The position numbers and the translations under genes are program-made. Shown here piece by piece: positions 691-17,038 of a stretch of 64,000 bases of DNA (positions within the stretch are counted from its first letter, which is position 1; each line of letters opens with the position of its first letter). The stretch comes from Beverwykella pulmonaria (taxonomy: Eukaryota; Ascomycota; Dothideomycetes; Pleosporales; Melanommataceae): contig BCHH01000002.1 in the NCBI GenBank assembly GCA_001599595.1, forward strand, positions 2,260,053-2,324,052, given 5' to 3'. The notes under the pieces were generated by a model. It saw only the letters and a list, made by a program, of their open reading frames with translations, was not told the origin of the DNA and made no database searches.

Positions 691-2153
691 ATGAGTTCGG
701 CTGGTGTTGGGGCAGCCGCCAGCGCAGCGCTGTATGCGGTTGTGAGTAGCCCCGCCCAGGTTGGCGCGAAGCCCGAGGATGCGAGCGAGTTGAGCCATCA
801 TTTGAAGCACGGAAGAGGGTTTAGGAATCCATGGGACAGTTTTGCGGAATTTAGTGCGCCGAAAATTATGTGGGGGATGATTTCGTAAGTGCTTTCTCTG
901 AGTTGATTGCGGGTGTTGGCGATGGAGGCGGGATGGGTGACACGGGGAAGAGTAGTGATGGAGACAGGGAACTGAACACTGGACACTGGAAACATGCTAA
1001 TGCTTCTATTTGAACAGACGACGCCTCACCGGCACAGCCAACGTCCCCGATACCACGCCCCCGACCGTCCCCGTCATAGCGCCTACCTTCCTCCCAACCC
1101 GCACGACACCATCCCTCCGCGCAACCTGGCTAGGCCATGCCTGTTTCTACGTCGAGTTCCCGTCTGGCCTGCGCGTGCTCTTCGACCCCGTCTTCGAAGA
1201 CTGCTGTGCGCCCTTCAACACAAAAGCCCTCAAACGCTACACCGCACCCCCGTGCCAAATCGAAGACTTGCCCGTCGTCGACCTGGTAGTCATTTCGCAT
1301 TCGCATTACGACCATCTAAGTTATGATTCCGTAAAGAGGATACAGAAGAAGTTCCCTGAGGCGCATTTTTTTGCGCCGCTAGGGTTGAAGAAGTGGTTTG
1401 AAAGCAGTGGGATTAAGAGTGTGACTGAGTTGGATTGGTGGGATACGAGGGATGTGAAGATGGAGGTCGTGAAGGGCACGGGGATGGGGGAGAAGTTGGA
1501 TTCGGTCGCTGTTACACCGCCGGCGGAGCAGGATCAACCAACTGCGACTGAGACTGGGGAGCACAAGAGTATCACGGCGACGATTGGTGCTCTGCCATGC
1601 CAGCACGTCTCCGCCAGGACACCATTTGATAAGTGTAGGACCTTGTGGGCGAGTTGGAGCGTGGAATCTGGCGGGGCGAAGGTGTATTTCGCTGGGTATG
1701 TATCATCATACCTCTCTTCACATCCATTCTACACAGCCCGAGCTTCTCTAACACACTCCCAGCGACACAGGCTACCGCTCCGTCCCGCACCTGCCTCCCG
1801 GCACCGATGACTACGGCCCCAACTATGCCCACCTCCCCGTGTGCCCCGCCTTCGCACAAATCGGCACGCACCGGGGACCCTTCGATCTCGGTCTGATTCC
1901 CATTGGTGCCTACGAACCCCGCTGGATCATGTCGCCTATGCATGCCAATCCTAAGGATTCGGTAAATATCTTCCTAGAGACCAAGTGTAAGCAGGCGATT
2001 GGGATGCATTGGGGCACGTGGGTGCTAACGGAGGAGGACGTTATGGAACCACCCAAGAAGTTGAAGGAGGCGTTGGATGAGAAGAGCGTTGAGGAAGGTA
2101 GGTTTGCCGTTGTGGATATTGGGGAGAGTAGGGAGTTTGGGCGGGAGTCGTGA
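691..2153 (+). CDS. NAPE-PLD-like metallo-beta-lactamase hydrolase
   Basis: Predicted zinc-dependent hydrolase of the N-acyl-phosphatidylethanolamine phospholipase D branch of the metallo-beta-lactamase fold. Three exons, 691-884, 1018-1695 and 1763-2153, join in frame to about 420 residues. Exon 2 holds the metal-binding signature HSHYDHL after [10 protein letters not shown]. The second splice rebuilds the conserved AGDTGY segment, followed by [16 protein letters not shown] and MHWGTW, all typical of fungal and bacterial NAPE-PLD homologues. The start at 691 is chosen because the recognisable protein begins just after it. The frame is open to ATG 277, which would add 138 unrecognised residues, possibly a targeting sequence. 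Whether the natural substrate is NAPE is inferred from family only. Confidence 0.85.
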
Positions 2154-3042: not shown

Positions 3043-6000
3043 ATGTCGTACGACAAAGGGAATCAGCCGCGTAACACCAGTCAGCAGAATAGCTACTCAA
3101 ATTACAATTTCACGGAGTTACTCACGTCTCTAGCCCCGGCTTCTTCCTCACAGCCTTATCCAAACTATGAAGCCGCTCATCAGCGGCGCCGTACCGATAC
3201 CCAAGGATCGGACTTTAGCACACTTTCGCTCAGTCGGACGGATGGCCAAGCGAGTCTCACGGTACCAGCTCACAAAGAGCGCACAGGCAGGCCAAGGGAA
3301 CAAAACAATCAATCAAACGGACCGAGCCGTGGTGTAAGCCCTCTCCCATGGATGGAGCCCAATGAACTGTGCGATGCATGCGACGGCACTGGTCCAGACC
3401 TCTCGTATTGTAATGTTTGCAACACTAATCTTTGCTCGGAATGTTGGCCACGACAAGCGCCTCATAGAAAGCAACGGCTCGCACCTGGCAATATTCGGCA
3501 TGAAAAGACGAACATAGCGGTCGCGAAGAAGATTCAGAAAGTATTGGTACCGACTAGCAACCTGGAGAAACTCACACAACTACATGAAGAGGACGAGGAG
3601 ACTGCGTGGTTTGGTACGCGCCACTTCCATCTCGTTTGATAGATACTGACTTCCCAGGCATTGAGCGGCCGGATGGACACCCTCCTGTATTTCAAGACTA
3701 CGGAAGATACGCCGAATTACTTGCCAATACCCAAGAGACATGGGCATCCACATTCCAAACTTCTCAGGTTGGAAGAGATGGCCGAACCCCGAGCCTTGTG
3801 TCATTTGTCGGGCAGACAGGAGCCGGGAAGAGCACCTTGATCAAGCTCATCATTGACCTTGGTGTCAAAGAAGACCAAATGTTTCCCACTCCTGTAGTTG
3901 GGGCCTCCGGCGCAAGCGTGCCAACTTCAGAGGATGTTCACCTCTATCTGGATCCTCTGACGGCCACCTCCGAGGCACCTACTTTCTTTGCAGACTGCGA
4001 AGGGCTTCAAGGTGGCGAAAGAGAACCTTTGGGCGCTAAATTTCGGCGCACACGCAAGAAGGCAATCAAGACGGAACGCACGCCGTTGCCCATCTCCGAG
4101 AGAGAGCTAGCTTGGGCTAGCAGTACACATCTTGCCAGCAGAGAATTTGCTGTGACTAATCTATATCCGCGACTGCTGTACACCTTTTCGAATGTTATTG
4201 TATTTGTGCTGAAGAATCCGCGGTAAGTGCATATTACACAAGTTCAACGCAAAGCTGACCGTTCTGCAGGGTCATTGAAAGTGTTTTTGAACAGCTTGTC
4301 AACTGGGCGGCTGCAGCACTCGAGATGTCCTCTAACCAGCCGGTTCTTCCCCACGCCATCATTGCTTTGAATGCTTCCGAGAACGACATCGCTGAAGAGC
4401 AGTGGGATCCAAATGTAGCGACTGAAACGGTGCTGGAGTCCATCTCTCGGATCGTTTTTCGCAATGCCACATTCAAAAAGTATGCCGAATTCTGGAGAGT
4501 GCGCAAGAGGGAGATCGAAAGCGTGGAACAGTTAATCCTTTCATACTACAGTTCCATCAGAGTATGTACAGTAAATACGTTCTTCGCATTCAGACCCCGT
4601 AAGCTGACTCGTTGAGGTGGTTCGAATTCCAACAGAAGGCCGCCCTCAACTAATCAAGGAACAAATCGAAAGACTTTATAAGGAGATTTCTCGCGCCTCT
4701 GAATTTGCCAGAGATCGAAAGGCAGAGCTGCGCATGCTGCTCGATGCAGAGGAGTTGCAGTCATATCTACAATGCGCATTCGATCATTTTGCGCTTTCAC
4801 TTGATCGACCCTTCGACTTCGTCCAGGCTTCCTTCTCGAACAGCCCGATCCCGCTTGATTTTGGTGGCAATATCCTCAAGTTGGCCATCAACCTCATGCG
4901 CGTGTGGGAGAACAAAGCCGACGTGCAATTCCTTTTCCAGGAGCTTAGCTATATGGTTGCGTCATGTATTATGCTTGATTCTGCTCGGCAGAAGATCCGG
5001 GGTGAGTTAGTTGTACAGAGGTCTCTGGTCATTACGCTTACATCTTGGCAGGAGCTGCAGCTGAGATTTTTCCGCAATATCTTCCTCACCTGGACGCGGC
5101 GCTTGAGAACTTCTTCGAGAGGCACTGGCCTTGCGAGTATGTACAACCAGGAGAAGGCTTGCGCTGTGTCAACGTCAGGAGCGGCCATGGTTCGAAGGGT
5201 CACCAGCTCAAGAATGGCAGGGTTTTTGCTGTCGGGGATTATCAGTCAAGATGGTCTTTCGAATCTCTGCAGGACGAATTCCGATGCAATGTATACTTCC
5301 GACTTGAAGAGCTATTGGACCTTCTCAAGCAGAAGATGTCGCCTGGAGACGATGAAACACGCGTGGCAGCGCACATTCACCGTGATGACGTTATGGCGTA
5401 TTTTTATCGACACGTATCTGGGGACGGAAAGTCTGAGCGGTACAACAGCCACTCTGTATGTTTTTGTTGCCTTTCGGAGCCACCGGAGCACCCGTTACCG
5501 TGCGGTCATGTCTTGTGCTCTCCCTGCATCAAAACATATGGACAGCAACGAGGCAAGAACGAGATTGAAATCCAAGGCTGTCCTTTGGAAGCTCACAGCA
5601 CTCAGCTTTACCAGTCTTACAGACTCTACACTAAGCCAGAAGCCGCAGGTGTACGTGTACTGACGTTAGATGGGTATGTTTGATCGCACAAATATGAAAG
5701 ATTGGTATTGACAGCCCTCACAATAGTGGTGGTGTTAGGGGCATTGCCGAGCTAGAGATTCTCAAGAGGTTAGAGCTCGAACTGGGTGGCAGACTGCGCA
5801 TCCAATGCTTCTTCGATCTCATTGTCGGAACCAGGTCAGTATTCTCCATTAGGGGGACGAAAGGAGTTGCTCACAAGACATTCTCAACAGCACGGGCGGT
5901 CTGGTAGCGCTAGGTCTTGTCACTTGCAACTGGCCAGTGCAAACTTGCATTCAAAACTTCGAGGAGCTTTGCGAGAAGGCCTTCACTCGCCGCACCGGAG

Positions 6001-8214
6001 GAAATCTTCCCATCATTGGCTGGATTGTCGATAATTACAACCATTCGAAGTTCGAGACTGCGCCGCTTCAAGAGGCATTACAGGCCGCTTATTCGAATGA
6101 CCAGTACCTGTTCGGTGGCCGTCGGGCTTCTCAATATTTGGCCTCTTCCCTGAAGGTTGCTGTGACAGCAACAAGTGCCTCCAATGCAGCTGTGATACTG
6201 ACGAACTACAACCGCCGATGTGACGAAAAATGTGAGACTTCTCTTCAAGCTTTCGTTCGACCTCAGCTGAAAAATCAGTATCATACCAATTCCAAAGACC
6301 GGAAGGTATAGAATCTGAACTAAAGACTTGGGAAGTGTGAGTGAACTCGTGAGTGCGATTTTCAGGCAAGTGCTAACTCTACTGGTAGCGCCCGAGCGAC
6401 TTCGGCCGCGCCTCGTACCTTCAAGCCTTTCCACCACGAGCCTTCCAAACAAGTATACATGGACGGCGCCCTATATCACAATAACCCAATTCATATAGCT
6501 GACAAGGAATGGAAGCTGATCTGGGGAACCGCCCTTTGCGAACACCCAGACATCATGCTCTCTCTTGGCACCACTTACAACCCTCACGCTCAACGGAGAC
6601 CCTTGAAAAAGAGTGCGAGCTCTACCATACGGCTCGGTCTTGTCAACCATGGCAAGAACCTCATCAAGATTGCTAAAGATCACATTCAGACTGCACTTGA
6701 TTGCGAGAAGACATGGGCCGATTATAAGAGCTCTCTACCAGCCAGCATATCAAACTCTCGATTTGTTCGTTTCAATATCGCACTAATGGAAGATCCCCCA
6801 CCTCACGATGATGTCCGTAGCATGCGAAAGCTTCAAAACGAAGTCAAGGAGCGACTGTCTAGAGACCCACTTCGCTATGAAGCTCAGAAGCTGGCAATGC
6901 AACTGGTGGCAACAAGTTTTTATTTTGAAACAGAGCGTGTGCAACAGTTCGCGCACAACACAGCAACAGCTATAGGTTCGTATAGTTACCTTGACTTCTA
7001 GAATACGGCTGATTGACGTTATGTAGGACGAGTTTACTGTCGGTTGATTGAGGGTTCGCGAGAAATCCAAGAGCTTGGTAAACTTATCAAGGAAAAGGCG
7101 TACGTTCATAGGAATCCGTTCTTTCTTATACGAGAACGAGGTTTGCAAGGCAAGACAGAAAAGCGCGAGATTAGCCCAGACACCGTCGGCAACATGATTT
7201 GGAATGGCAAGTTCGAAATGCGTAAAATGAACATCGAGCTAGAGAACAAGCTATCGGAGACCGAGATCTTTCTCTACATCAATGAGAATCAGAATTATCC
7301 CATCAGTGGCTTTCCTCGATGCTTATTCTCAGACGAGAAGGATAAGACCAGTGTGTACTCTCTTTTTCCTGTATTATGTTTTCTAATCCAGAATAGAGAC
7401 GTTACATCCCTTGGCTATCAACACACGCCGGTGGGCTGGAAGGTCCAACAGCCAGCAGATGCGGCGAAACCTATGGGCGCCTCCCGAGCGTACTCCATTA
7501 TCCCGACAACGGACAATCTCGAATTACGCCGATCCCAACCATGTCATGGGCCACGCGACTGCTGAACAACTGCGACAAAGTGCTGACCACTTCTCCAATG
7601 GCGGGCCAGCGCCAGCTGAGATTATGACACATCGGGAGCTTCAACCACCTCCATTGCATGAACTTCCAGCGGAGCCGGGCGTTGTAGAGCTCTCTAGCGA
7701 TCAACAACTCAAACATCCTTGGCAGCTCTACACGCTGTTCGACGATTCTTCAGTTTCCAGGGTGACAGAAACTCGCCTTCCCGATGCTATATTGCCCACT
7801 AGCCCCTATGAGCAGTTCAACTCCCAAGAGCACGATAGTAACTCGGTGTTAGAATTCGGGGGTGGCAGCTCGGGAGACGACGGGTTCGACGCTGTGCTGG
7901 CGCAGGCTCTTAAATTGAGCCAAGAAGAGGAAGACGCCCGCCAACGGAGACTATTAGGAAACGATGATGATGATGAACCCGGGCTAGCGCGAGCTCTCGA
8001 AATTAGCTATGAGGAGGAGAAAGCCCGTCAGTTGGAGTTGAAGCAGGCAGCGAAGGCACTGGAAAGAGACGAGGACACAACGAAGCGCACAACGACGCAG
8101 GATACCGGCTCAAGCCCGAAAAGCCGGCCTCCGGCCACTGACACCATTGGCACCTCAGACGAGCCTGAAGAGTGGTATAATACAGAGGAATGGCCAGTAA
8201 GGTTCGCCGGGTGA
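3043..8214 (+). CDS. GBP-like GTPase / RING / patatin / UIM multidomain protein
   Basis: Eleven exons (3043-3613, 3658-4222, 4270-4561, 4617-5001, 5052-5673, 5727-5834, 5891-6231, 6279-6336, 6389-6975, 7027-7350, 7397-8214) join in frame to about 1556 residues. Domains in order: a B-box-like zinc finger (about 109-145, CDAC...CNVC...CSEC); a P-loop GTPase with GQTGAGKST (about 240) and a DCEG motif (about 303), the DxEG form of the GBP/atlastin class; a RING-like finger (about 739-785, CFCC...CGHVLCSPC...GCP); a patatin domain with oxyanion motif DGGGVRG (about 811), nucleophile elbow GTSTG (about 848) and catalytic DGA (about 1005); and two C-terminal ubiquitin-interacting motifs (QALKLSQEEE about 1455, RALEISYEEE about 1482). 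Predicted activity is lipid acyl hydrolysis, probably controlled by nucleotide and ubiquitin. The last junction also has a weaker alternative (7355-7391). Patatins of this kind occur in fungal NLR-like proteins; a role in immunity is inference. Confidence 0.85.
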
Positions 8215-9487: not shown

Positions 9488-10626
9488 TTACGCGGAAGTA
9501 ACTGCAACACCTCCTGGAAGCTGTTTAATCCACGCTCCATCCTTACCAACGTCTTCGACAACTTGTTGAGCCTTCTTGCATGTCATGGAGTCCTTAGCGG
9601 ACTGTATCTTAAGAACACTGCAGTTAGCGTTAGCGCACTTGCCGCTGGGTAAAGCGTCCATGGCCTTCTGTAGAGCGTCGCCCTTCCATCCAAAGAGGTA
9701 GTCACCATGCTGACCGTAGCCGGTACTATTTGATGTCAGTAACTTGGTAGTTTGCACAATAGACTTTATTCATTGAAACTTACGCGTCGCCGAAGCTGTA
9801 GACGAAAGGCTGCTTGCCGCTACCGTACCAAGCGTCGTTCTTATATCTTCCAGTGTCCCACATGATCTCGTACATGACCTGGGGAATAGCGACGGGGTGA
9901 GTACTAGGGCACGATGTGCTACCGAGGCCACCGCTGTTGGAGTATGCAACGTGGCTCTTGTGGTCTGGGGAATCGAGATTTTTTCCATCCCAGCATGATG
10001 GAAATATGACTGTTGCTCGGATACCTTTAGGGCAGTACTTGGTCGGGAGCTCGCCAGTGTCTTTAGCATCGCACGGAGCGAAGCCCTCACCGTTTCCGAG
10101 GCAGCGGTGACAGATCGAAATTCTGTTGTTTTTCTTGGTCATGGGGTCTCCTGCGATCATTCGGAAGCCAGGCTTGAATGCCGTCATTTTGCCATTTTTG
10201 GCGCTATAAGGCATGTAGTACACCGTCATTCCTCCATCCTGCTGGAGCCCGCCATTGGCATACTGGGGAACGCGCTGGAAGGTGCCATTTTCGGGCGACT
10301 TAAAGTACAAAGAGGCGGTCCAGTAGTTGCTGAAGTCCTCGGAATATGTGCAGGATGTACAGGTAGACTTGGCGGCCGGATCATATGTACCTGGTTCCAT
10401 CTGAACCATGTTAGTGGCAGCTGCCAACGAAGTTTGTGTGCATTACCGTAAGATTGAAGGAGTTTCCCCCAACAATTTGATGGGCATGAGGGGAAGGGCT
10501 CTGTCCAGGGTTGACGAGAGGATCAGCACGCTCGATGGTGAGCTGCGAGCAGGCAAACCGAAGCATGTTCTGCGCAGAGACAGATTGCCCCAAAAGCGCA
10601 CCGGCGGCGAGAGCGTTCCAAAACAT
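9488..10626 (-). CDS. secreted DUF1996 domain protein
   Basis: Three exons on the minus strand (10626-10447, 10400-9784, 9725-9488) join to about 344 residues. The ATG at 10626 is chosen because it directly precedes a signal peptide (FWNALAAGALLGQSVSA). The mature protein begins NMLRFACSQL and carries the DUF1996 hallmarks RADPLVNPG, PHAHQIVGGNSFN, CTSCTYSEDFSNYWTA, PSCWDGKNLDSPDHKSHVAY and CPSTHP. Splicing the first intron rebuilds FNLTMEPGTYDP and the second FGDATGYGQHGDY, both family-typical. DUF1996 proteins are extracellular and probably act on or bind polysaccharide, but no reaction is established. It is the usual length, without an added WSC or cellulose-binding domain. Confidence 0.9.
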
Positions 10627-12461
10627 GGCGAAGTTCTTTGCGTGAAGTTTCGAAGTTGATGTGGCGATGCACAACGTGGAAAACCTGGGGTCTTCTTAAA
10701 CTAAAGGTCGGGGCTTTTAACGAATCTGATAAGTTACTTTGGAGATTAAATGGTAAATGTGGGGCCTTGGAAACCTCTCGGTGATCGTGGCGGCAATTGT
10801 GATGGTTAATTTCATGGGTTACTTTCATCGTCTGACGAAAAGGAACCAACTGGAATGTTGGAATTTAACTTGTAGCACTAATCGGCAGTTGTCGTTAAGA
10901 GTGCCGAAAGTAGGATATATGAAGCCGTCATTTCATATATTGCCAGACAGGGGTCAGTCTTGAGCCCTACCCTTGTCAATATTGCCCTTAAAGGACCACT
11001 TGCGAGCATTTCAGGATGCCTCAAAAAGTCCCATAGTAGATGACAAATAGATCTTGAAACCTTGTTTTCAAGATCCTGGGGCATGTGAATGAACAGTGCT
11101 TGGTTACGGTATATATATACTTCACTGTTCTGGCCCAGAACAACCTGTCAGCACCTCTCCGCATCCGGGCAACTATCATACCGTAACATCATAATATAGT
11201 ATAGAAGGCTCACATGAACGTGTGGGCGGCTAGTAAAATGAGTCTCTCTTTTGGTGAGGGTATGCTCTCACTCCACTCTCACTAATGGCTACTTATAGAT
11301 ACCACGCGTTGATGATCTTATACTCTAAACTAGCTCTCTATTAAGCTATTTTGCGCCAAGCTACTGCGGCCTGTTGCTATCTGTATTCTCTATACGCTTG
11401 TCCAATACTAACTCTACTTTCTCTGTATCAATCATTGCAGCTTTGAACTTCTTCTCAGAACTTAGCATCACTGCACGCTGGCGCGCTTGTTCATATCCTT
11501 GAGGCCATTTTGAGCGCGCTTGGAAAATATGCTTTTTTTCCATCACTCCTTTACAACTACTGTTACTAAAAAGACGTCTGAATTATATATTTCTAGAATA
11601 GACACGTATACATATATACTACTTGCAACTACTTATCTGATTTTAGCAATTAGCACGCTTTATCCCAAGACCCCCTTTGCATCACCTCGCCCATCCATCA
11701 TCTCAATGCGTCGAGTTATGCTCGAGTTTCCTACCCGCAGCTGTATACCGCACAATCAACTCATCTGGCAAAGAGCCACTTTCCCCTGTCCCACACCCTT
11801 AGCCCGTTGCAGTTGCTTCCTGATACTCCAATGCGTCGTTCGATAGGTCGGCAAGCGCAATTCCCGCACGTATTGGCTAATACGCGGGGCTTCTAGCACC
11901 ATCTTGAGTAAGTCCCAGACCTCCCGTCTGGAACTTGCAGTATTAATGACTGCGTATTCGGAGCACAGACGTGCATGCTCCTTAATGAGACTAGCGCATA
12001 TATTCCAGCCTCACGAAGATAAAAAAACGCTGTATCCCACTTCCAAATCACGTACCAGCTCTAGGATGTATTCGAAATTTTAAATGTTACTTCGCGGGTT
12101 CGGAAAGGTTAGTCTTTAAATACGACTTCAATATGCTGATAGGTATGGAAAGGATGTTATAAAATTAGAATTTGTTGATAGGGATCTTACAGCTAGCTGC
12201 ATAGTGGTGCGAGCACTAGTCGGCAAGGCATAAGACAGTTGCACGGTGTACACAGCGTACGGGGATAGTAGGGTGGGCAACAGGTTTCTGGTTATTGCTC
12301 TGCTCATCTATGTACAAACGCGAGCGATATTTAAGGAGGCGCGCCCGTGCATGGATATCACGTGATATAACCACGTGATCCCATGCCGGGCTAGACAGAT
12401 ACTTTGCGCCGTATCGCTCCTGCGTACGGACAGAATTCCAATATTAGCTTATTCAATAGCT
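10627..12461. other. 1.8 kb gene-poor region
   Basis: No gene is supported. The proximal part should be the promoter of the DUF1996 gene. From about 11200 the sequence is AT-rich with only short broken frames. A 60-codon minus-strand frame at 11361-11546 is Lys/Glu/Arg-rich and might be a scrap of a mobile-element protein, but nothing in it is diagnostic. Composition suggests degraded repetitive DNA. Confidence 0.35.
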
Positions 12462-14777
12462 TTATTTGAGGAATATCTTCTTGCGCTCCGGTTCTGCATC
12501 CCAAAATGCCTCAATTAAGCACATTCCTACACCTACTCTCTCCACCATCACATCGTCTCTCCTTTCAATCACCAAGACATCGTAAGACTGCCACTTGAGT
12601 TGAAAATCGTATACATCAAAGTAAGAAATAGCTCCTCTCTCCATACTCTTCGTGCGGAGTTCATGACGTTCGGCATAGCCAGATCGAATAGATACGACGT
12701 CTGAGTCGTCTGGAGGAGGGGATCTAGAATCCTCATTACCTTCACCGTAAGATGTTCGTGATATTACTATGCACTCGAGCGTTTCCGTGTCGAAGTTTGG
12801 GTTTGGAGAGTGGATATAGACGATGCCACAAAAAGAATCGAAGCGGTCGTAAAGGGTGTGTGATTTGATATCAGGTCCTGGGATTGCGTGGATATCCTTT
12901 TCCAGAGAGAGTGTTCCCGGTCGGGAAAATATTCGCGCCGACAAAGCGAAGAAAGCTAATGCGTGAGAGCCTTCACAGAGAAATTGATGTGTTTTCATAC
13001 TCTCCGGAATAGATTCTGAAATGGGATGAGCAAAATGAAGATCCGGTGCATTATCGTCGACGTAATACGGCGCAAGGCGAATATCGCGGTCTGGTACCAG
13101 ACTCCATCCGGTGCAATTGTCTCCGTCTATTCCACGCCAGTCATCCGTGGTGAATTCAGTCTTATCGTCAACGGCATTAATCCAAGCCACTCTACTGAAA
13201 TGGTTCGACTCATAGACCGGGAAGTTTACGGGCCCTTTCCATCCCACCCAACTCCAGGATGGGAAGAGCGGCACTCCAGTATTATCATGTAAACGTCTAT
13301 CGAGGCGAGCTAGTGGGAACCACAAGAGAGAAAGCTCAAGTTCTGAGGATGGCAGGCCGTAGAGAAAGTCTCGTCGAAAATGGGCGTGCATGAGCTTGAG
13401 AATTCCTTGGAACGCATTCAGCCCATCTTCTTGGTATGTGAGCGTACGGTCTGAATAGAAAAGGACGGCCATAGCATATAACTGGATATTTGACATTTTC
13501 AAAACGTGCGCGACGCTATTCGCGATAGGAATACCGAGCAGCCTAGGAACTGGCTTGTTGGGATCATGAGTCGGGAAATGCTGATCTTCTTTGGTGAGGC
13601 CATCTTCGCTCTCGAACATGATACCATCAAGCGCAAAATGAATACATCGGCGAGATAGAGCATGTTCCTGGAATGTCCAGCCACGATTGTGCCAAAACCC
13701 TAGACTAGCTCCAGGGAGATGGATTTGTGTGTTAGCGAGTTGAAGTCCGCGCACATTGTCGACGTACTGTTTCCACCTGTTGGGATAGGGCTGGATACCT
13801 GGTAAGCCAGCATGGCAACTCGATCCGTGAGCAGCTACAATAGTGACAACCGCACAGCTGTATATCAGGTCCATGGCATTGATTTGGGCCATTTTGCCCT
13901 CTCCGTCGTCTTGCACTATACAAAGGCTATCCACCCACAGATAGCGTTCACCAATACCCGAAACAAGATCTATGGCATCCCTTATTGTCTGGGGTAGTTG
14001 ATGGTTCGTTGAGAGACTTCCAGGTTGCCATAGAGACTGATCCGTCGCTTTCGTATTCTGGAAAACTTGAGGTCCTCCCCATACATAGCTTAAGGCTAGG
14101 TACCTGCACCCCAAAGGTCCGCTGACAGGTCTCACGCAGTAATCCACGACGTCGATTACTCGGAAACCTGGTACTGGCCTCGCCGTATTTTGCACTGGAG
14201 AGAATTGAGAAACCCATCTGCGGGTGGTTTCCAAAACAGTTTGGTCGCTGACTCGACGCCCTTCTAACGGAGCATGGTGACCATCCACGATTCTCTGCAG
14301 GAAGACTTGTTTAAAGCGTCGGAAACCGCGGTTGATGTCTGTCAATTCAATCGCCAAATCATAAATCTCATAATCAATGAATTCCTTTTTGGAATTGCCA
14401 AGCGTGCAAAAGACGAATTGCCATGGACACGCTCCGAACTCGTATTCTAGTAGTCGTTCTGGATCCGTTTCGCACGCAGCTGCAATGGAGCGGATTACAA
14501 GGCGGCAAAAGTTGCAGCGGTCGCACTTCTCTAGTATCTCAAACAAAAAACCTAGAGAGAGGTCTGGAAAGTGAAATTCTTGTGTTTCGCTTATCCAGGG
14601 GATCTTGATTGGGCGCGGTTTGTCTTCATCGTTGATCGTTGATCTGAAGTGTCGGTATCGGGCGTCCTGGAAGTTGTTTTGGAGGAGCCATGGAAAGTTA
14701 ATTTGAGAGCATATGCGACATAGATCTTCGAAGGTTTCATCCAATGAAGAGGACATATAGTAGGGCTTGTTGGTCAT
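12462..14777 (-). CDS. HET-domain (heterokaryon incompatibility) protein
   Basis: A single uninterrupted exon encodes 771 residues from the ATG at 14777 to a TAA at 12464-12462. Residues about 225-375 form a HET domain: CRYLALSYVWGG, RYLWVDSLCIVQDD, VTIVAAHGSSCHAGLPG and the later GWTFQEHALSRRC. The N-terminal part holds Cys pairs (LCRICSQI near 20, CDRCNFCRL near 85) usual in the variable region of these proteins. The C-terminal end (GVGMCLIEAFWDAEPE) also fits the family. HET proteins trigger cell death when genetically different hyphae fuse; the domain is TIR-like. No partner gene such as a NACHT or HET-S-type gene lies next to it. The frame looks intact, so it may be functional. Confidence 0.93.
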   Translation of the reverse strand: MTNKPYYMSSSLDETFEDLCRICSQINFPWLLQNNFQDARYRHFRSTINDEDKPRPIKIPWISETQEFHFPDLSLGFLFEILEKCDRCNFCRLVIRSIAAACETDPERLLEYEFGACPWQFVFCTLGNSKKEFIDYEIYDLAIELTDINRGFRRFKQVFLQRIVDGHHAPLEGRRVSDQTVLETTRRWVSQFSPVQNTARPVPGFRVIDVVDYCVRPVSGPLGCRYLALSYVWGGPQVFQNTKATDQSLWQPGSLSTNHQLPQTIRDAIDLVSGIGERYLWVDSLCIVQDDGEGKMAQINAMDLIYSCAVVTIVAAHGSSCHAGLPGIQPYPNRWKQYVDNVRGLQLANTQIHLPGASLGFWHNRGWTFQEHALSRRCIHFALDGIMFESEDGLTKEDQHFPTHDPNKPVPRLLGIPIANSVAHVLKMSNIQLYAMAVLFYSDRTLTYQEDGLNAFQGILKLMHAHFRRDFLYGLPSSELELSLLWFPLARLDRRLHDNTGVPLFPSWSWVGWKGPVNFPVYESNHFSRVAWINAVDDKTEFTTDDWRGIDGDNCTGWSLVPDRDIRLAPYYVDDNAPDLHFAHPISESIPESMKTHQFLCEGSHALAFFALSARIFSRPGTLSLEKDIHAIPGPDIKSHTLYDRFDSFCGIVYIHSPNPNFDTETLECIVISRTSYGEGNEDSRSPPPDDSDVVSIRSGYAERHELRTKSMERGAISYFDVYDFQLKWQSYDVLVIERRDDVMVERVGVGMCLIEAFWDAEPERKKIFLK

Positions 14778-15361
14778 TGCTGAGTATGTGTACCTCGGGG
14801 TAAGTGTAATAGCTCTCCAACGCTGATGCCTTTACCGAGCCGAATAGCGTACACGCTGAGCGTAAGGAAGCTTAGGTCGCTCGGGCAGCAGAAAAGCAAC
14901 TCCGCTGGGACATACAATTGTCTAAAAAGAGGAATATACGTAATAAAAAGGCTCCTACACCTCCTCTAGATGCATCTAAGGAGCCAGAGGCTGTTGATGT
15001 GGATATAGCATCCATCCTAGACGCGGTGCCTGCATCTGGCCCTGTCACACGCACTCGCAACATACAGCTCCCGCTATCGCACATAATTTGTCGTTGTTAA
15101 TTAGTTTATATAGCAGCTCTAAGTGCTACAACAAAAAAGCTAGTGATTTTACGATCTATATACCGCTGTGGAGCCTCATTTGTTAGTGATGTTCGGCGTT
15201 CGAGAGTGATCGTCAGGTGGGGGCGATCGCCAGGCGGTGAGTCACATGATGTCGCGTGAAGTTCGTGTTACTAATTTACCTCTCAATGACTCGGAGCGCG
15301 ACTTCCAACTCTGCGAATTCTGGAAATAACCCCCACCGCCCCCACCATCCCACACATCATT
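14778..15361 (+). other. intergenic with a coding-like fragment
   Basis: A plus-strand frame at about 14890-15097 is unusually rich in Lys, Arg and Pro and then acidic (KRNIRNKKAPTPP, DVDIASILDAVP), ending in a stop. It has no plausible start of its own. It could be the C-terminal tail of a decayed transposase or nuclear protein; I cannot assign it. The rest should carry the divergent promoters of the HET gene and the PD-(D/E)XK-like gene. Confidence 0.3.
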
Positions 15362-16808: not shown

Positions 16809-17038
16809 CCCACAAAGACATGGCTTAGCACGAACCACATGGCATATTACGACCCACAAAAACACGGCATATCACGACCCACAAGAACACGGCATATCAC
16901 AACCCNNNNNNNNNNNNNNNNNNNNNNNNNNNNNNNNNNNNGGGTTGTGATATGCCGTGTTCTTGTGGGTCGTGATATGCCGTGTTTTTGTGGGTCGTAA
17001 TATGCCATGTGGTTCGTGCTAAGCCATGTCTTTGTGGG
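16809..17038. repeat. 97-bp inverted repeat around an assembly gap
   Basis: Two 97-bp arms, 16809-16905 and 16942-17038, are exact reverse complements and meet at 36 N. Each arm is built of about four degenerate units of roughly 24-25 bp, with a core like GTGATATGCCGTGT followed by a TTGTGGGTC-like spacer. Symmetry ends sharply at 16808 and 17039. This may be a real hairpin-forming palindrome made of tandem repeats, or an artefact where two contig ends of one tandem array were joined in opposite orientation. Confidence 0.9.

Follow-up and report, generated by a model that had tools for sequence, protein, structure and literature searches.

In a window of 64,000 nucleotides of the fungus Beverwykella pulmonaria (contig BCHH01000002.1; all coordinates below are counted from the first letter of this stretch), a gene at positions 3043-8214 of the forward strand encodes a single protein that combines two zinc finger-like modules, a large GTPase-like domain and a patatin lipase domain. 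The architecture is genuine, and many Pezizomycotina have conserved it. Among the readings weighed here, the one we tentatively hold to be the most likely is that the protein is a cytosolic phospholipase gated by nucleotide and serving regulated death or defense in fungi, belonging to a family spread across Pezizomycotina. In fungal allorecognition, death is driven by patatin effectors fused to nucleotide switches; in bacteria, patatin effectors take part in anti-phage defense. A preliminary description of the locus, made from the sequence alone, knew of no functional account of the full architecture; likewise, the open literature searched yielded neither a functional description of a GTPase-finger-patatin architecture nor a paper linking it to immunity.

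Gene structure and domain order

The eleven exons of the gene are spliced in phase into 1556 amino acids followed by a stop codon, as the preliminary description had it. The ten introns are 44-56 nt each, all with GT..AG borders; introns 4, 6, 7 and 10 contain no in-frame stop, and retention of any of these would shift the frame. A search of 5.8 billion proteins at E ≤ 0.001 produced 317 homologues, and the counts given below rest on the best 120 of these 317, a list that is biased to full-length forms. Seven of the ten exon junctions (1-6 and 8) are crossed by gapless alignments in 65-113 of the 120 homologues, with junctions 2, 3, 4, 6 and 8 gapless in 107-113, whereas junctions 7, 9 and 10 are gapless in only 28, 5 and 6, respectively, the latter two being located in variable regions. 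For intron 10, phase partly guided the choice of splice sites, and the resulting join agrees by eye with homologue P0002.

It is hardly credible that two adjacent genes were fused here by a wrong splice model. Junction 5, which connects the RING and patatin segments, is gapless in 111 of the 120 homologues, largely refuting such an artefact and indicating one protein rather than two, and the domains stay in one chain among the homologues listed: at least 60% of the domain is covered for the first finger in 91 of the 120, the GTPase in 118, the helical region in 120, the RING in 112, the patatin in 119, the post-patatin region in 99, and the tail in 4. The observation that speaks for an artefact is the existence of short, GTPase-only predictions (537 at E ≤ 0.001 within a short length band, with the best 120 listed and 24 of them examined), of which 15 stop away from the intron 4 and intron 5 boundaries and may be intron-retention forms or genuine short genes. 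The remaining nine stop where introns lie, seven at residues 605-610 (intron 4) and two at residue 812 (intron 5), as expected of unspliced predictions. Several of these nine have a few extra residues compatible with an unspliced intron, and, by their sequences, they look like unspliced or truncated predictions.

All motifs named in the preliminary description, from the B-box-like finger to the patatin DGA, were located in the translated protein. Exon 1 (3043-3613) encodes a disordered-looking N-terminus and a B-box/ZZ-like zinc finger (residues 107-153, about 3361-3501). The GTPase core lies in exon 2 (3658-4222), with the P-loop GQTGAGKST (residues 242-250, 3810-3836), a switch-I-like PTSEDVHLY (3921-3947) and DCEG (residues 303-306, from 3993); the domain continues in exon 3 (4270-4561), where LNAS occupies the presumed G4 position (LNASEND, 4367-4387), and ends in exon 4 (4617-5001), which also encodes the helical middle domain. 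Helical hairpins, a C632-C643-H650-H655 motif (5132-5203), a RING-like finger (residues 741-784, 5459-5590) and the start of the patatin domain are found in exon 5 (5052-5673). Exon 6 (5727-5834) contributes the GGVRG part of the oxyanion loop DGGGVRG (residues 811-817) and bases one and two of the codon for the nucleophile Ser848, a codon split by intron 6; exon 7 (5891-6231) contains the nucleophile elbow GTSTG (residues 846-850) and patatin core, and exon 8 (6279-6336) further patatin core (SYQFQRPEGIESELKTWE). The DGA motif (residues 1006-1008; catalytic Asp1006, 6462-6464) and a CapV/iPLA2-like C-terminal lobe are encoded in exon 9 (6389-6975), followed by the post-patatin region in exon 10 (7027-7350) and, in exon 11 (7397-8214), by a stretch shared with P0002 (WAGRSNS ... 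DPNHVMGHAT) and a variable tail with two helices resembling ubiquitin-interacting motifs (UIMs; 7888-7929 and 7975-8016).

GTPase and patatin domains

The predicted structure of the nucleotide domain matches GBP and atlastin structures at 10-15% identity, bearing out a large GTPase fold of the GBP/atlastin type; SMG9 is also among the structural matches. In members covering the respective columns, the P-loop Lys is kept in 116 of 116, the P-loop Ser in 117 of 117 and the switch-I-like Thr in 116 of 117, and the P-loop Gly and DxEG are invariant or almost so. The Pfam GBP family gave no match at E ≤ 1 for the window protein and is not among the families shown (25 of 40) for 33 aligned members. 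The predicted model indicates that the nucleotide domain is GBP-like in fold, with GTPase chemistry and guanine specificity being putative.

Pfam searches agreed with the proposed patatin domain well above the curated cut-off (PF01734: 87 bits vs. 27.7, E 2.5e-24, profile positions 1-191 of 191), whereas matches for the proposed RING, B-box and P-loop fell below their cut-offs; these three are weak in Pfam, yet their ligand and motif columns are strongly conserved among homologues. The window protein has all three patatin motifs (oxyanion DGGGVRG, nucleophile GTSTG, and DGA), such that the full catalytic set claimed earlier holds, with an intact Ser-Asp dyad and a lipase activity that is itself predicted. 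The predicted fold of this region is CapV/iPLA2-like.

The dyad is not universal. Of the 109 homologues that could be scored, 20 have another residue in place of the nucleophile Ser (Gly in 19 cases and Asn in one; 11 further homologues were not scorable), and the Asp is also gone in 11 of these 20. When catalytic states were placed on a tree of the GTPase and helical region only (114 rows, 103 labelled, quick method, LG+G4), four changes were needed, at least three of them forced by well-supported branches. These sequences are most simply read as repeated loss of the lipase Ser, the direction not being proved by the tree. Ten members without both catalytic residues form one supported group (Shimodaira-Hasegawa-like approximate likelihood ratio test, SH-aLRT, 99). 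The ratio of mean patatin identity to mean GTPase identity is 0.77 in this ten-member group; a second dead group has 0.86, and four groups with an intact lipase, picked by hand, have 0.87-0.92, a hint of relaxed patatin constraint in the ten-member group only. Reading 18 Ser-less homologues motif by motif, we found the P-loop, DxEG, the seven RING ligands and the C-C-H-H motif intact in 18 of 18, and the first finger complete in 12 and gapped in 6.

Zinc fingers and tail

The first finger scores below the Pfam cut-offs both for zf-B_box (16.7-18.6 bits vs. 24.1) and for CEBP_ZZ (15.8 vs. 29.8); each of its eight Cys/His ligands is kept in 88-102 of the 88-103 members covering the column. Between the stalk and the RING-like finger, we detected a C-x(n)-C-x6-H-x(3,4)-H motif that was absent from the preliminary description; it is invariant in 68 aligned rows and missing from some truncated gene models in the full homologue listing. 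In the RING-like finger, seven Cys/His ligands are kept in 110-114 of the 112-115 members covering each column. The eighth position (n = 109) is Glu in 50, His in 36, Asp in 9, Cys in 4 and another residue in 10 members, and it is Glu in the window protein. With Glu, His or Asp instead of the last Cys in 95 of 109 members, ubiquitin ligase (E3) activity is putative.

These data bear on a rather unlikely alternative, under which the protein is a GTPase/RING scaffold or ubiquitin ligase and the patatin domain a binding or sensing module. The missing nucleophile in 20 of 109 scorable homologues, for which the tree demands no fewer than three changes of state, is in line with this explanation, as are the intact remaining modules in all 18 Ser-less homologues checked and the precedent of RNF112, a protein that, according to the accessible text of PMC12012479, combines a RING and a dynamin-type GTPase and has E3 activity.

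The tail does contain two UIM-like helices, but the tandem UIMs proposed earlier score below the Pfam cut-off (PF02809: 17.0 bits vs. 21), only the second helix fits the strict UIM pattern, and they are not conserved. The strict pattern arises in 13 of 5000 shuffles of the window tail and is found in 4 of 121 proteins, compared to a mean of 1.2 in shuffles; a loose pattern, used without a control, is found in 37 of 121. Judged from the sequences, the UIM-like tail helices are a private or sporadic feature. The idea that lipase action is at its core coupled to making and reading ubiquitin is not supported in the form proposed: the strict UIM is absent in 117 of 121 proteins, including P0002 with its well-covered tail, and the eighth RING ligand is altered in most members. 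UIM-like helices were also seen in a few distant relatives (the tails of P0109, P0118 and P0119, and the N-terminus of P0016), below the Pfam cut-off where scored, and they were perhaps gained repeatedly.

Distribution and paralogues

Introns and homologues mark the DNA as fungal, and close matches in Periconia digitata (69% identity over 79% of the query) and Ascochyta lentis (66% over 81%) indicate Pleosporales. The named species among the matches listed belong to Dothideomycetes, Eurotiomycetes, Lecanoromycetes, Leotiomycetes, Sordariomycetes, Pezizomycetes and Orbiliomycetes; no basidiomycete or yeast was seen among the named rows of the matches listed, many rows having no name. Extra SH3, SPRY or ankyrin domains occur in P0011, P0106, P0259, P0261 and P0265, as variable accessories on a fixed core.

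A tblastn search of the 45.6 Mb genome detected six further loci that extend from the first finger past the patatin dyad, which makes about seven such loci in total, together with one partial relic (L036). One of the loci, L032, belongs to the dead-lipase type (GSG, ECG), and L038 (1566-4848) is a divergent relative that retains RING and patatin-like motifs and has a nucleotide domain without P-loop and DxEG. The presence of multiple copies, including dead and degenerate ones, fits an accessory or defense role better than strict housekeeping, although it is not proof. Housekeeping membrane homeostasis, in which an iPLA2-like phospholipase and a membrane-remodeling dynamin-type GTPase would serve the turnover of organelles or lipid droplets without any part in immunity, is a possible but doubtful explanation: such a copy profile is, we infer, more typical of defense or accessory families, and no transmembrane anchor stands out in the window protein.

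Matches to DUF3435 (the Starship captain) lie 6 and 11 kb from two family loci (the pairs being L034, at G000:C11:50494, with L035, and G000:C6:771115 with L038). For this proximity, in two of nine loci, a simple model set up post hoc gives P about 0.001; the contig of the window copy has no DUF3435 match.

Neighboring genes

Directly upstream of the gene, at 1001-2150 (+), is a gene with a lactamase-B fold, i.e., a second lipid-type enzyme, in at least two exons with PF12706 in both pieces; we take it to resemble an N-acylphosphatidylethanolamine-hydrolyzing phospholipase D. Downstream, a gene at 9488-10700 (-) is, by eye, presumably of the secreted DUF1996 type, and about 4.3 kb away lies a HET-domain gene at 12500-14789 (-) (PF06985, E 3.1e-29 on the piece scanned). 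The segment 16202-17040 contains a PD-(D/E)XK nuclease-like domain (PF20516, 16202-16789) followed by what are, by eye, the arms of an inverted repeat, flanking a run of N (16906-16941) that is either masked or a gap.

Proposed mechanism

The gene model gives a single chain, whose folds are predicted and whose Ser-Asp dyad is intact; on this basis, we infer assembly and lipase activation as follows. The chain runs from the B-box/ZZ-like finger through the GBP/atlastin-fold GTPase, helical stalk, C-C-H-H motif, RING-like finger and CapV/iPLA2-like patatin to the variable tail. Nucleotide binding may cause the GTPase to form dimers or oligomers, as in GBPs and RNF112; the stalk would relay this assembly, gathering the patatin modules at a membrane and switching on phospholipid hydrolysis, much as CapV may be switched on by ligand-driven filaments. 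The finger modules and the tail might vary input, partners or turnover, and members without lipase residues could be regulators or scaffolds inside the same assemblies. The likely use would be membrane attack or regulated cell death triggered by damage, non-self or stress, parallel to patatin NOD-like receptors (NLRs). The NLR-like defense considered in the preliminary description is a plausible and reasonable possibility, whereas we found no evidence in favor of xenophagy, which it had also considered.

Several points weigh against a nucleotide-gated phospholipase of death or defense. The linkage to the HET gene is not significant (P about 0.08): with at least 155 HET matches in the genome, such closeness is near chance. 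The loss of Ser in some homologues suggests that lipase activity is dispensable in some lineages. GBP, atlastin and RNF112 have an Arg finger in the P-loop, and true GBPs have an RD motif at G4. In this family, the P-loop Arg is not present, the window protein having Gly there, as do 115 of 116 members, and RD is absent, with LNA instead (Asn413 in 118 of 118 members, the next residue Ala in 113 of 118; the G4 register is that of the strand position in the predicted model); hence, GTP hydrolysis and even guanine specificity are putative. Finally, the E3 and GTPase activities of RNF112 are unrelated, according to the accessible text of PMC12012479, and coupling of modules is therefore not to be assumed.

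The unusual G4 and the Gly in place of the Arg finger favor a different, improbable reading, which takes the nucleotide domain for an ATP sensor or a catalytically dead switch rather than a GTPase, with the protein reporting energy or infection state like NLR ATPases. The structural match to SMG9, which has an atypical G domain, points in the same direction, but the P-loop Lys and Ser, the switch-I-like Thr and DxEG are kept, as for a working Mg-nucleotide site.

If the protein is a nucleotide-gated phospholipase of this kind, a GBP-type GTPase joined to a CapV-like lipase, in multiple copies and Pezizomycotina-wide, would represent a new route to regulated membrane attack, the family would be a new place to seek fungal immunity beyond NLRs, and lineages without the lipase residues would serve as a natural test of GTPase and RING function by themselves. 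A bolder version, which is conceivable although we consider it somewhat unlikely, would make the family an unrecognized class of fungal innate-immune effectors, in which two folds of immunity otherwise known separately, the animal GBP-type GTPase and the bacterial CapV-type phospholipase, form a self-switching unit. Nucleotide-driven oligomers would fire the membrane lipase so that a compromised compartment of the hypha is killed or walled off, with lipase-dead paralogues as brakes or decoys.

Comparison with known systems

The two fingers weakly match TRIM31, TRIM34, Midline-1 and TIF1-beta in sequence, and the first finger weakly matches ZZ fingers, e.g., that of Sequestosome-1; however, order and spacing differ from the TRIM type, the first finger being far N-terminal and the RING starting about 590 residues later. 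CapV is a phospholipase activated by cyclic GMP-AMP in bacterial cyclic-oligonucleotide-based anti-phage signaling (CBASS). It forms filaments, according to the titles of entries in PDB, and it is a separate small enzyme switched by a cyclic nucleotide, whereas in the window protein the lipase is fused behind a GTPase. RNF112 shows nucleotide-coupled dimerization (accessible text of PMC12012479), but its RING is N-terminal and it has no lipase, whereas the window protein has a RING-like finger after the GTPase, and a patatin domain. Patatin-domain genes (PLPs) are reported as Starship accessory genes in the accessible text of PMC12506042; the likeness to the present family lies in the patatin domain and in the two family loci near DUF3435, the contig of the window copy being without a match.

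The regulated death driven by PLP-1 of Neurospora crassa requires patatin activity and a nucleotide-binding motif, according to the accessible text of PMC12881547, and the patatin requirement is also given in that of PMC10197012. At E ≤ 1, Pfam detected in the window protein neither NACHT or NB-ARC, the domain there matching the GBP fold, nor C-terminal repeats, ankyrin being found in a few relatives. Both PLP-1 and the window protein unite a patatin with a nucleotide switch of the P-loop type in a single fungal chain; PLP-1, however, consists of an N-terminal patatin, NB-ARC and tetratricopeptide (TPR) repeats, whereas the window protein has an N-terminal GBP-like GTPase, a C-terminal patatin and zinc fingers.

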